From the NCBI GenBank assembly GCA_035700025.1, contig DASSOY010000012.1:111191-175190 (forward strand): 64,000 nt of DNA, read 5' to 3'. The position numbers were made by a program, and so were the translations under genes. Under the pieces are notes generated by a model. It was not told the DNA's origin. It saw only the letters and a program-made list of their open reading frames with translations, and made no database searches. Origin of the DNA: Bacillales bacterium. Its GTDB lineage: Bacteria > Bacillota > Bacilli > Bacillales > DASSOY01. Below, piece by piece: positions 3,927 through 8,971 of this stretch. Position 1 is the first letter of the stretch. Each line of letters starts with the position of its first letter.

Positions 3927-6900
3927 TCAAAATTTAAGATTTCCGAGCGATTTCAGCGATTGCGCCGGCATTTGCTCTTCTGTCATCAGGAAAAAGACAG
4001 GCTTTGTGAAAAAGCTTTTTCCATCCTCAGCATCGATGACTTGACTCATATCCATTACGTTCACTTCTTTGTTCGTGTAAATCGTCGATGTAAACAAATC
4101 AAAGTCTGCAGCCACTTGCAATTTTTCTCTCCGATTCCGCTTTTCGTAAACGAGAGCGGATTCCACAAACGACTCAAATTCTCCTTGGAACGACTTCAAA
4201 TGCATCCAATGGCCGTCTTGATTTTGCATTTTCACAACATCCGATGCAATACAAAGATCGTAGATCCAGTTGTTTGCTTTTAAATAACGATTCGTCTGTT
4301 GATGAATTTCCGTCGTATGACAAACGACCGGAACACCCGGGATCATAAGGTAATATTGCGTATAGCTTAATCCTTTTAGTTTTTCATGGTTCGTCACTTC
4401 CGTCGTTACGGCAATGCCGGACCATTCATTCCCCTTATGATCACGAAGGGTTGAAAACGCCGCATGATGTTTTTCCTTATCAATTGAATTTAAATTCATA
4501 TCTTCATGACGATTCAGCATGCCGCCCGGCCACGGATTCCACCATGATTTCGGCACTGCTTGCGGAAATGAGTGATGCAGCCAATTATGACCTTCATATT
4601 CAAGTGCGTACATCACCGGAAAAAATTCAGGCGCTGCTTTGATTGTCAAAATGCCGTTGGATGCTTCATAACTTTGCTTTCCTTCACGCTCGATGATCGT
4701 TGTTTCTACTTTTTCATTCGACGGTCGCAAAACGGCGGTTGAAATCGCATGGTTGCGTGTCTTCCAGTCACCAATTCCGTTGATCAAATGGATGCCGCTA
4801 TCATCTGATAGCTCAACATTTACCGCCAAAGCGTTTTGTTTCTCGTCTGGCTTTACGTTTTTTTGAGCGAGTTTCGTTCCATTTTCCGAAATGGTGAGGA
4901 CACCATCTAGAAACGTCGATTTGAAATCGGTCCATTCAACGGCTGCCGAATCACTCGTGATGACCGGATTATCATCGTTAACGGTTAACTTCACATCCAA
5001 AGTTGGGTTTATATCTTGTTCAACTGTGGAACTTGATTGCTCTGCAAAAGCTTTAAAATCTCTCCAGTCGTGAAAAGCCCCGATAGAAACCAACGTCGGA
5101 CGTGTTTCATATTTTTCACCGGGAGCAAGTGTATTAATTGGATGTTCAAAATAAACATACCAATCTTCAAAATGAACTTTGTCTTCCTTTGCCCACGAGA
5201 GCCCGTGACCCTTTCCTTCACTATGTCTCGAAAACAACCAGTTTCCCGTCACTTTCGACCCATCCCAATACTCATGGAAATAATCAGCCGGGTCTTCCAC
5301 GGTAAGAATTTCATGATTATAAGCCATCACCGGCCGCTTCAATTCATAATAAATCGGATCATGCAGCCATAACGCTTCAACCGAATCATGTTCGGATAAA
5401 TTTGTAATCGTAAAATTTCTTTCAACAACACCTTCAGCAAAAAGTTTGGCAACCACCGTTAGTCCAACATTTTTAAAAGCTTCTGAACGATAGAAGGCTT
5501 CCATGACGATCGCCTGATCCGTTTCGTGAAAGTTTACCGATTCCGGACGAACTCTCGAAAGTTCATCAGAAAAAGGTTTTCCAAGCTTCGGGAAAAACCA
5601 AGCCGTTTTATCCTCTGATTCATGCTTTTGCCCCGGGAGCATGCCATTTCCGTTTTTCTCGAGCAGCAAATGATAAGATCCGTTGTAAATCTGCCAATAG
5701 TCTTCACTTTCGCCGCTGAATTTGGCACCAAGACCTTTAAAAGCCGCAGTTATCTTCTTTTTAAACGTCCATCCCTCACCGTTTTCTGGTGTTACCTGAA
5801 ACGCAACCTGTGGATCATAAAAACCAAACTGCTTGAGACGGTAAGGAACCGGAATCGATTTCTTTTCGCCTTCGTTCAAGCTGACTTCAACCACGGGCTT
5901 TTCAAACTGAAGCATGCCTTGCTCCGGCAAGGAAAACGAAAACGTTGCCCGCTCTTTCATGTTGTTTTCCATCTCAAGATAAAATAACTTTTCAACCCCG
6001 ATGAATGCTTGCGTTCCAGGCAACGTGATGGCAGTGTTCGCAGGGAATTTCGACAAAACGGCGGTCTTAAAGCGAGCTTGTTTTCCGTTTATCGTGATGT
6101 CGGTCACGACTGCTGGATGGGTTTTCTTCGGCGATTGTTCCTCGTCTAACCGGCCAACCTCGAATTCGCCTTTGACGATTTCCCGATTAACGACATTCAG
6201 CGATTTTGCAAATGAACGGAACATAATATTTTTATCGTCAACACCTTGCAAGGATACTTCCAACGGTTTGCCTGTTTTGTTGACGATCTCATACAAGACG
6301 GTATGACGTTTGCCGATAATTCTTTTTAAATGCTCAGTTGATGCTGAAATGAAGAAATCTTCCGTCTCAATCAATCGCATGCCGCGGCTTTTTCTTTCGA
6401 ATTCGACCCGCAGTTTTTCTCCATCTTTCGATTCCCAAGAATACCCGAAAAAGTCAAAGCCGTTTTCTTTCCGGCCGTCCGGCTTCACTTCAATTTCCCG
6501 GGTCGAATCGCTGTACCAATCGGCTTTGTTGAAATAATCTTGAATGAGCTCGGTGTTGAGAACCGTCGGTATGTAGTTCATGAGATGTGTTGAGCGGTCG
6601 TCTTCTTCCCAAAAAAAGCCGCATTTCTTATAAAGCGGTACAGCTTTCGTATTCCCCGGCCACGTATACAAATCCAACCGCGGCCATCCTAATTGAATCG
6701 TTCGTTCAACAGCTTTCAACACAAGTTTTTTTCCGATTTTCTTTCCGTGATAATCACTTCTCACGTTCAACAAGGGAATGTACAGTGCACCCTCGTCGCC
6801 TTTATACTCGCTTAAACCGCAGTACCCGACCACTTCATCACCGTCAACAGCCAAATATAAATGGAGGTTGCTGGAGTTCGCTTCTTGCTGCAGTACTTGC

Positions 6901-7013
6901 TCTTCCGTTCTCACGGCACTCCCGCCGCCCCAGTTATCCTGACTTTTGTTCCACATATCGGCCACGGCTTTCGCCCATTTCGTCTCATATTCTACAATGC
7001 GAATGTCTGCCAT
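3927..7013 (-). CDS. giant protein: N-terminal GNAT acetyltransferase fused to an ~870-residue beta-rich region
   Basis: The start is ATG at 7013 because GGGAGG lies 6 nt upstream; this gives 1028 residues. Residues about 1-150 form a GNAT domain, with LYIPLLNV, the acetyl-CoA loop YHGKKIGKKL and VPLYKKCGFFWEEDD visible. The rest (about 155-1028) has many Tyr/Trp/Phe and beta-strand-like stretches, including segments such as EYEGHNWLHHSFPQ and WWNPWPGGMLN. These are reminiscent of carbohydrate-active or mutarotase-like beta sandwiches, but I do not recognise the family. No signal peptide or membrane helix is seen, so it is probably cytosolic. The upstream leader ORF and terminator suggest regulated expression. 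Product and substrate are unknown. Confidence 0.7.
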   Translation of the reverse strand: MADIRIVEYETKWAKAVADMWNKSQDNWGGGSAVRTEEQVLQQEANSSNLHLYLAVDGDEVVGYCGLSEYKGDEGALYIPLLNVRSDYHGKKIGKKLVLKAVERTIQLGWPRLDLYTWPGNTKAVPLYKKCGFFWEEDDRSTHLMNYIPTVLNTELIQDYFNKADWYSDSTREIEVKPDGRKENGFDFFGYSWESKDGEKLRVEFERKSRGMRLIETEDFFISASTEHLKRIIGKRHTVLYEIVNKTGKPLEVSLQGVDDKNIMFRSFAKSLNVVNREIVKGEFEVGRLDEEQSPKKTHPAVVTDITINGKQARFKTAVLSKFPANTAITLPGTQAFIGVEKLFYLEMENNMKERATFSFSLPEQGMLQFEKPVVEVSLNEGEKKSIPVPYRLKQFGFYDPQVAFQVTPENGEGWTFKKKITAAFKGLGAKFSGESEDYWQIYNGSYHLLLEKNGNGMLPGQKHESEDKTAWFFPKLGKPFSDELSRVRPESVNFHETDQAIVMEAFYRSEAFKNVGLTVVAKLFAEGVVERNFTITNLSEHDSVEALWLHDPIYYELKRPVMAYNHEILTVEDPADYFHEYWDGSKVTGNWLFSRHSEGKGHGLSWAKEDKVHFEDWYVYFEHPINTLAPGEKYETRPTLVSIGAFHDWRDFKAFAEQSSSTVEQDINPTLDVKLTVNDDNPVITSDSAAVEWTDFKSTFLDGVLTISENGTKLAQKNVKPDEKQNALAVNVELSDDSGIHLINGIGDWKTRNHAISTAVLRPSNEKVETTIIEREGKQSYEASNGILTIKAAPEFFPVMYALEYEGHNWLHHSFPQAVPKSWWNPWPGGMLNRHEDMNLNSIDKEKHHAAFSTLRDHKGNEWSGIAVTTEVTNHEKLKGLSYTQYYLMIPGVPVVCHTTEIHQQTNRYLKANNWIYDLCIASDVVKMQNQDGHWMHLKSFQGEFESFVESALVYEKRNRREKLQVAADFDLFTSTIYTNKEVNVMDMSQVIDAEDGKSFFTKPVFFLMTEEQMPAQSLKSLGNLKF

Positions 7014-7052
7014 GTCTGACCTCCCAAATTCATTAATGTTTCCGCGAAAAGA

Positions 7053-7087
7053 CAAAAAGAACCACAGGTGTACACACCTGTGGTTCT
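7053..7087 (-). terminator. leader terminator in front of the GNAT-fusion gene
   Basis: A perfect 14-bp stem (AGAACCACAGGTGT, arms 7058-7071 and 7074-7087) is followed on the minus strand by TTTTGTCTTTTC. It lies only about 40 nt before the GNAT-fusion start codon and after a leader ORF. It can end transcription from ilvD and from the promoter at 7239-7267, so the downstream gene seems to depend on readthrough. Confidence 0.85.
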
Positions 7088-7133
7088 CATTTCAAATGAC
7101 CATGCATTGAAATTCGCGAAAAATAGAAAGAAC

Positions 7134-7208
7134 CTATAAAGCTTGGCGTGTGTGTATGAAAAATCTTATTGCACTTGATTGAGTAACCTTCATACGTACG
7201 ATCATCAT
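7134..7208 (-). CDS. 24-codon leader peptide upstream of the GNAT-fusion gene
   Basis: A short ORF with two consecutive ATG codons (MMIVRMKVTQ at the start) follows GAAAGAGGTGTGT, a usable ribosome binding site, about 24 nt from the predicted transcription start. Its stop (7134) is 47 nt before the terminator stem. The start region (7206-7214) is perfectly complementary over 9 nt to a segment within its own 3' half (7150-7158), and that same segment can pair with the loop-proximal GTGTGTA of the terminator. This layout is typical of leader-peptide attenuation. No homology is claimed. Confidence 0.45.
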   Translation of the reverse strand: MMIVRMKVTQSSAIRFFIHTRQAL

Positions 7209-7238
7209 ACACACCTCTTTCCATTGGATCTATTTTTG

Positions 7239-7267
7239 ATTGTACAGCATTTTCGAAATATTGTAAA
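7239..7267 (-). promoter_or_regulatory. sigma-A promoter for leader ORF and GNAT-fusion gene
   Basis: TTTACA (7262-7267), a 17-nt spacer and TACAAT (7239-7244) form a near-consensus promoter beginning 22 nt after the ilvD stop codon. The expected transcript starts near 7232. Confidence 0.75.
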
Positions 7268-7288: not shown

Positions 7289-8971
7289 TTAATCGGTCAC
7301 TGCCCCTTTAGATGCCGTTGAAACGAGTTTCGCATATTTTGCAAGCACACCTCTCGATGCTTTAACAGGCGGTGCCTGCCATCCTTGCTTGCGCTGCTCC
7401 AATTCTTCATCACTAACATCAAAAGACAGCTCATGCTTTTCACTGTCGATGGTGACCATGTCGCCCTCCTGCAAGAACGCCATCGGACCGCCGACTTGTG
7501 CTTCCGGCGCGGCGTGTCCAACGACCAACCCGTGAGTCCCTCCCGAAAATCGGCCGTCTGTTAATAAGCCTACCGTTTCACCGAGTCCTTTTCCGACAAG
7601 AATTGAAGAAACGGACAGCATCTCTGGCATGCCCGGTCCGCCTTTCGGACCAACATATCGAATGACGAGCACGTCACCAGCTTTGATCTGATTATTTAAG
7701 ATCGCTTCAGTCGCTTCCTCTTCCGTGTCAAAAACACGTGCAGGACCCGTAATTTTCGTCACTTTCAAACCGGAAATTTTCGCAACGGCGCCTTCCGGTG
7801 CCAGATTGCCTTTTAAAATGACAAGCGGACCTGTCGGATGTTTCGGTTGATCGAAATGTATCACCTTTTGTCCTTCTTGCAACCCCGGGAATGCTTCAAG
7901 ATTTTCGGCAATCGTTTTACCTGTAACCGTGATGCAATCGCCATGCAGCAAGCCTTTTTCAAGTAAAAGCTTCATCACGCCAGGAACGCCTCCGACATTG
8001 TTCAAGTCTTGCATCACATACCGTCCGCTTGGACGAAGATCTGCAATGTGAGGCACACGCTGACGAATCCGCTCAAAATCTTCATAATCAAGATCTACGC
8101 CGACAGCATGTGCGATGGCAGGCAAATGAAGCACGGCATTCGTCGATCCGCCGAGCGCCATCACAACCGTTATCGCATTTTCAAACGCTTTTTTCGTCAT
8201 AATATCCTTCGGACGAAGATCGTTTTCGAGCAATTGCAATAAGGCTTGTCCGGCTTTATGGCAGTCTTCACCTTTAGCAGCAGATTCCGCAGGATTTGAA
8301 GAACTGCCAGGCAAGCTCATACCCATCGCCTCAATCGCCGAAGCCATCGTATTTGCGGTAAACATGCCGCCGCAAGAACCGGCACCTGGGCAAGCATGAC
8401 ATTCCACTTGATGCAGTTCCGCTTGATCAATGGAACCATTGTTATATTGACCAACAGCCTCAAAAGCGGAGACGATATCAATATCTTTTCCTTTATGTTT
8501 ACCCGGCTGAATCGTACCGCCGTAAACGAAAACAGACGGCAAATTCAAACGGCCGATCGCCATCATGCAGGCAGGCATGTTTTTATCACAGCCGCCGATT
8601 GCGACAAATCCATCGAGACTCTCTCCGCCGACAACCGTTTCAATGGAATCGGCGATGATTTCACGACTTGGAAGCGAATATCTCATCCCGTCTGTACCCA
8701 TGGAGATGCCGTCAGATACTGTAATGGTATTAAAAATCATCGGCGAACCGCCGGCTTCTCTTGCGCCGGCTTTTGCTTGTCTCGCCAATTCGTCAATGTG
8801 TACGTTACAAGGCGTAACCTCACTCCACGTGCTCGCAATGCCTACCATTGGTTTCTTGAAATCGTCATCCGAAAATCCTAACGCTCTCAAGTAAGCACGG
8901 TTCGGGGCACGATTTTCCCCTTCACTGATCACTTTACTCTTGATGCGCAAATCCTTTTTCTCTCTCTCCAT
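7289..8971 (-). CDS. ilvD: dihydroxy-acid dehydratase
   Basis: The 560-residue protein is a full-length IlvD. It dehydrates 2,3-dihydroxy-isovalerate and 2,3-dihydroxy-3-methylvalerate to the 2-keto acids in valine and isoleucine synthesis. Cluster ligands are visible in [11 protein letters not shown] and [17 protein letters not shown], and a [12 protein letters not shown] signature follows. The ATG at 8971 is preceded by GGAGG with a 5-nt gap. It follows the cvfC-bacilliredoxin genes on the same strand but is separated from them by a strong terminator, so it is probably its own transcription unit. A CodY-like site lies just upstream. Confidence 0.97.

Follow-up and report, generated by a model that had tools for sequence, protein, structure and literature searches.

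In Bacillus subtilis vmlR, an upstream open reading frame (uORF) lies inside an anti-antiterminator hairpin, and a ribosome stalled on the uORF frees an antiterminator that has a small hairpin, SL-2, at its apex; an intrinsic terminator precedes the gene (PMC9226507). The Listeria hflXr (lmo0762)/rli80 system has an ORF of 14 amino acids with the macrolide motif RLR, and hflXr is an example of the previously unsuspected resistance factors to which ribosome-mediated attenuators have led (PMC6310831). The translated leader of B. subtilis bmrB-bmrCD contains a terminator, an antiterminator and an anti-antiterminator, and is induced by 50S antibiotics (PMC4191407).

The locus considered here lies on the minus strand of a 64,000-nt stretch of DNA from a Bacillales bacterium (the window), between the end of ilvD at 7289 and the ATG of a giant gene at 7013. 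A leader-peptide attenuator had been predicted there from the letters of the DNA, and all of its elements are present. The near-consensus promoter, the 24-codon leader ORF with a ribosome binding site (RBS) and the perfect 14-bp intrinsic terminator are where they were expected. The distance to the next start codon, put at about 40 nt and said to leave no room for another promoter, is 44 nt from the terminator end at 7057, and a promoter scan of 7057-7013 found no promoter-like site, including any candidate for the separate promoter between 7050 and 7013 that had been raised as a counter-possibility. A BLAST search of the leader against its own genome found no second copy. The features, all on the minus strand, are as follows.

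7267 to 7239, minus strand: promoter TTTACA-17-TACAAT, from the promoter scan, with 10 of 12 matches
7218 to 7214, minus strand: leader Shine-Dalgarno (SD) sequence AGAGG, from the sequence
7208 to 7134, minus strand: leader ORF of 24 codons, with ATG at 7208-7206 and TAG stop at 7136-7134, encoding the peptide MMIVRMKVTQSSAIRFFIHTRQAL
7214 to 7205, minus strand: segment 1, the leader RBS and start, GTGTGTATGA, putative partner of segment 2 in the anti-antiterminator, from folding and shuffles (p=0.004)
7159 to 7145, minus strand: segment 2, the anti-RBS, TCATACACACACGCC, predicted to pair with segment 1 or the terminator 5' arm, from duplex prediction and shuffles
7134 to 7128, minus strand: GGTTCTT, second part of the predicted antiterminator, pairing with GAGAACC at 7088-7082, from duplex prediction and constrained folding
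7113 to 7089, minus strand: small hairpin that separates the leader from the terminator and sits at the apex of the predicted antiterminator, from folding
7088 to 7057, minus strand: intrinsic terminator hairpin, perfect over 14 bp with a 4-nt loop, followed by a T-rich tail
3927 to 7013, minus strand: controlled gene, 1028 amino acids, with an N-terminal GNAT domain, a beta-sandwich middle and a C-terminal galactose-mutarotase-like domain (766-1028)

The leader from 7233 to 7050 folds at -56.1 kcal/mol, versus -38.8 (sd 3.7) for dinucleotide shuffles (z=-4.7; 0 of 200). The predicted 9-bp pairing of 7150-7158 with the leader start at 7206-7214 is real, GTGTGTATG (7214-7206) matching CATACACAC (7158-7150), and grows to 10 bp when segment 1 (7214-7205) is set against TCATACACAC (7159-7150). 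This 1:2 pairing is prolonged by an outer helix of about 10 bp, AATGGAAAGA (about 7225-7216) with TCTTTCTATT (about 7131-7122), which also occupies part of GGTTCTT. The terminator 5' arm contains AGGTGTGTA, a copy of the leader RBS, and segment 2 can pair with this arm, as had been proposed; however, the 7-bp antiterminator of the original prediction is not the best one, and RNAduplex prefers a larger structure in two 7-bp parts, ACACGCC (7151-7145) with GGTGTGT (7078-7072) and GGTTCTT with GAGAACC, at -16.3 kcal/mol, which encloses the small hairpin. The anti-antiterminator and antiterminator pairings are mutually exclusive, and both are conserved. Relative to dinucleotide shuffles of segment 2, the 1:2 pairing in the window has p=0.004, and the 2:3 pairing, taken alone, only p=0.035.

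It was further proposed that segment 2 becomes free when a ribosome occupies the leader near its start, and constrained folding reproduces this. A P site imposed at codons 3-5 makes the partial transcript adopt the antiterminator, with 13 pairs in the terminator 5' arm; the anti-antiterminator results when the P site is placed at codons 7-12 or the ribosome is left out. Codons 1-2 give another, 7-pair alternative fold, and some positions at codons 13-15 also permit the 13-pair antiterminator. In the full transcript at equilibrium the terminator is always favoured, and the switch must therefore be kinetic. In the proposed switch, transcription would begin just after 7239, and by default segment 2 would pair with the leader RBS, or be covered by ribosomes translating through it, so that the terminator would form and transcription would end near 7050. 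A ribosome stalled on the first few leader codons would release segment 2 and GGTTCTT, which would pair with the terminator 5' arm, a mimic of the leader RBS; with the terminator thus blocked, the giant GNAT gene would be transcribed.

As in the three described systems, a leader ORF with an RBS follows the promoter, and a terminator stands between promoter and gene. The likeness to vmlR extends to the uORF within an anti-antiterminator, the small apical hairpin (7113-7089 here, as SL-2 there) and the terminator before the gene; however, the vmlR uORF has three codons (MIN) and controls an ABC-F factor, whereas here there are 24 codons before a GNAT/beta-sandwich giant, with no clear sequestration of the downstream SD. 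With hflXr/rli80 the locus shares a predicted ribosome dependence and a short ORF overlapping the anti-antiterminator, followed by antiterminator and terminator, but RLR is absent and the gene is not the same. In bmrB-bmrCD a leader ORF is likewise combined with terminator, antiterminator and anti-antiterminator, but the terminator is inside the leader coding region and an ABC transporter is controlled. By analogy, the window element most likely works like vmlR, hflXr and bmrB (PMC9226507, PMC6310831, PMC4191407). Two other known types of attenuator were considered and rejected: the erm/cat translation attenuator, in that the downstream SD shows no clear sequestration and the fold of 7060-6985 is no more stable than that of shuffles (z=0.67), and the trp/his-type amino-acid attenuator, in that the peptide has no run of a regulating codon.

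The gene family was collected from 84 of 397 genomes of the order, together with the best 80 of hundreds of stretches in a species-level genome collection, and ranges over Bacillaceae, Brevibacillus, Paenibacillus and Clostridia. The upstream regions of the orthologues fall into three groups: class A, with leader and terminator; class B, with a leader without terminator; and those in which neither was found. Class A comprises the window, Fictibacillus, Ornithinibacillus/Paucisalibacillus/Lederbergia and several clostridial genomes (L071, L096, L098, L102, L103). The leader ORF, RBS:anti-RBS pairing, antiterminator pairing and terminator recur, with sequences that differ, before orthologues from at least five further lineages. 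In Fictibacillus and Ornithinibacillus-type loci the leaders are likewise preceded by TTTACA or TTTACT -35 boxes. In 6 of 6 lineages tested, the 1:2, 2:3 and 3:4 pairings can form in the same order between the leader RBS, a late-leader anti-RBS and a terminator arm that resembles the RBS, and the pairing letters differ: GTGTGTA in the window, AAGGAGG..GTTGGAC with AGGATGTGTAT in Fictibacillus, and AGGTTGTA with ATAGGATGTAT in Ornithinibacillus. When dinucleotide shuffles of segment 2 from one representative per lineage were combined by Fisher's method, the six lineages gave p=3e-8 for 1:2 and p=2e-7 for 2:3; the five lineages other than the window gave about 6e-7 for each.

The original prediction called for two checks, whether the leader ORF is conserved and whether its pairings covary; both conservation and covariation were found in other lineages and support the reading as ribosome-mediated attenuation. 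The class-A alignment shows changes on both sides of 1:2 and 2:3 in the Ornithinibacillus group, with compensatory changes in 1:2 and, in 2:3, one double change that replaces T-A by C-G in the L048 antiterminator. Of 13 Fictibacillus-type loci, 8 have the segment CCAATACACAACC in one reading frame and 5 in another, which argues that selection there is on the RNA pairing rather than the peptide. On the sequence side, this comparative evidence is decisive for assigning the element as a putative attenuator. Most Fictibacillus leaders have two tandem terminators (upstream regions L002, L036, L038, L043, L044 and L069); several also carry another small ORF (MIQFRKSR...) adjoining the gene, and the RBS of this ORF resembles the complement of the 5' arm of the second terminator.

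The structured leader (z=-4.7) would also suit a ligand riboswitch or protein-bound attenuator that is independent of translation and in which the ORF is incidental. This is very improbable: the leader RBS is itself one partner in the conserved pairing, a leader ORF with SD is found in every class-A lineage, and an Rfam scan of the window gave no gathering-level match, to T-box or any other curated riboswitch. In the Rfam scan of six relatives the sole match was a lysine riboswitch (RF00168, L042 10106-10282) on an Ornithinibacillus contig, unrelated to the leader.

The hairpin might instead be the plain terminator of upstream ilvD, with promoter and leader ORF there by chance, and indeed no other terminator was found between the ilvD end at 7289 and 7088. 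That explanation is nonetheless very improbable, given that no promoter candidate in 7057-7013 could start the downstream gene and that other genera show the order leader, terminator, gene again, with unrelated genes in front of it. The specificity of the arrangement bears on the same point. Among 156 strong terminators in 2.35 Mb of collected loci, both strands, 58 lie within 700 nt upstream of the gene family; by fixed criteria a leader ORF is present at 42 of these 58, and both pairings as well at 26, many of the 26 being close relatives or repeat records, so that 26 is not a count of independent events. Of terminators elsewhere in the collected loci, 0 of 98 have even such a leader.

What the leader senses can be considered from the same alignments. 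Sensing of an amino acid or of a specific nascent peptide, by stalling at particular leader codons or through an arrest peptide, would accord with the MI(K/Q/V/N) beginning of the leader peptides in most class-A loci and with the conserved C-terminus of the class B leaders in relatives. It is nevertheless improbable here, for no codon is repeated in a run in the window leader, the RLR arrest motif is absent, and the conserved class-A RNA segment is read in different frames, the peptide there not being kept. Since relatives read segment 2 in different frames, the surrounding peptide is not sensed; the sensed quantity is ribosome position near the leader start. This frame-free conservation makes induction by a translation inhibitor the natural reading, and the trigger would be an inhibitor of early elongation, most likely an antibiotic that targets the ribosome. 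Taken together, we consider the element to be a ribosome-mediated transcription attenuator with a probability of about 80%, and infer that termination and read-through occur at it in vivo.

Many Bacillaceae orthologues have instead the class B leader (L003, L005, L008-L010, L014, L039, L100-L109, L126, L149-L163, L169-L179), which is unrelated to class A and lies without a terminator upstream of the orthologous gene. It consists of a 5' hairpin with varying but complementary stems, a very strong SD and about 17-23 codons, and the peptide C-terminus is fixed directly before the stop: among 52 distinct leaders, 37 end in Thr, with all four Thr codons in use, and 45 have UAG as the stop. Judged from these sequences, the leader looks like a termination-arrest peptide, and those ending in Thr-UAG may arrest at RF1-dependent termination. 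No description of this leader type was found in the open-access literature searched.

In a protein tree of 95 rows, class A is limited to one half (window, Ornithinibacillus type, Fictibacillus and Clostridia) and class B occurs in the other Bacillaceae; leader class changes 11 times in all, versus a shuffled mean of 41.5. The window row sits on a long branch, and where exactly it belongs in the tree is uncertain. Its closest proteins are those of Pseudalkalibacillus (44-46% identity), which are nested beside Fictibacillus and upstream of which no such leader was found; it was lost or never present, and the control is thus dispensable in some hosts.

The controlled protein is a giant GNAT fusion, as predicted: Pfam places Acetyltransf_1 at residues 39-133 (E=2.5e-15) of the 1028, with no further domain above cut-off outside the GNAT region. 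Gly90 and Gly94 are invariant in 12 relatives, and their region looks like the acetyl-CoA loop of the GNAT domain. The AlphaFold model (mean pLDDT 82, pTM 0.61) has all-beta domains after the GNAT domain, and residues 766-1028 match galactose-mutarotase-like folds, e.g., 3mwx (Z 18.7, rmsd 3.1 over 233 residues); the comparison, made with the full 1028-residue model, tested mainly residues 681-1026. In the model this likeness is one of shared fold and shows no function. The best whole-chain Foldseek matches, beta-galactosidases and complement proteins, were not treated as homologues, with TM-scores below 0.2. NCBIfam gave just weak generic GNAT matches under cut-off, and PADLOC no defence family. 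The next gene encodes an Amidohydro_2 (PF04909) metal-dependent hydrolase in 72 of 116 loci examined, near-copies included; it is directly downstream in about 70 loci besides L002, in many cases abutting the GNAT gene, and is absent from the window's own genome.

A search of the open-access literature found no paper on such a leader before a GNAT fusion, an absence that is weak evidence; as far as that literature shows, the controlled gene, with its GNAT, beta-sandwich and mutarotase-like parts, is undescribed and has not been linked to such control. The same switch plan, in different letters, at the same gene in distant Gram-positive bacteria suggests, at the level of sequence, an unrecognised antibiotic-response gene. 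A bolder and rather doubtful possibility is that the giant GNAT/mutarotase-like protein, often beside Amidohydro_2, constitutes an unrecognised, widespread Gram-positive system for ribosome-inhibitor resistance or detoxification that came under translation-sensing leaders at least twice (class A and class B). An attenuator at the same uncharacterised giant enzyme in Bacillales and Clostridia would give that enzyme a testable role, in the response to a translation inhibitor, and the attenuator itself would be a ready reporter for finding the inhibitor that induces it.
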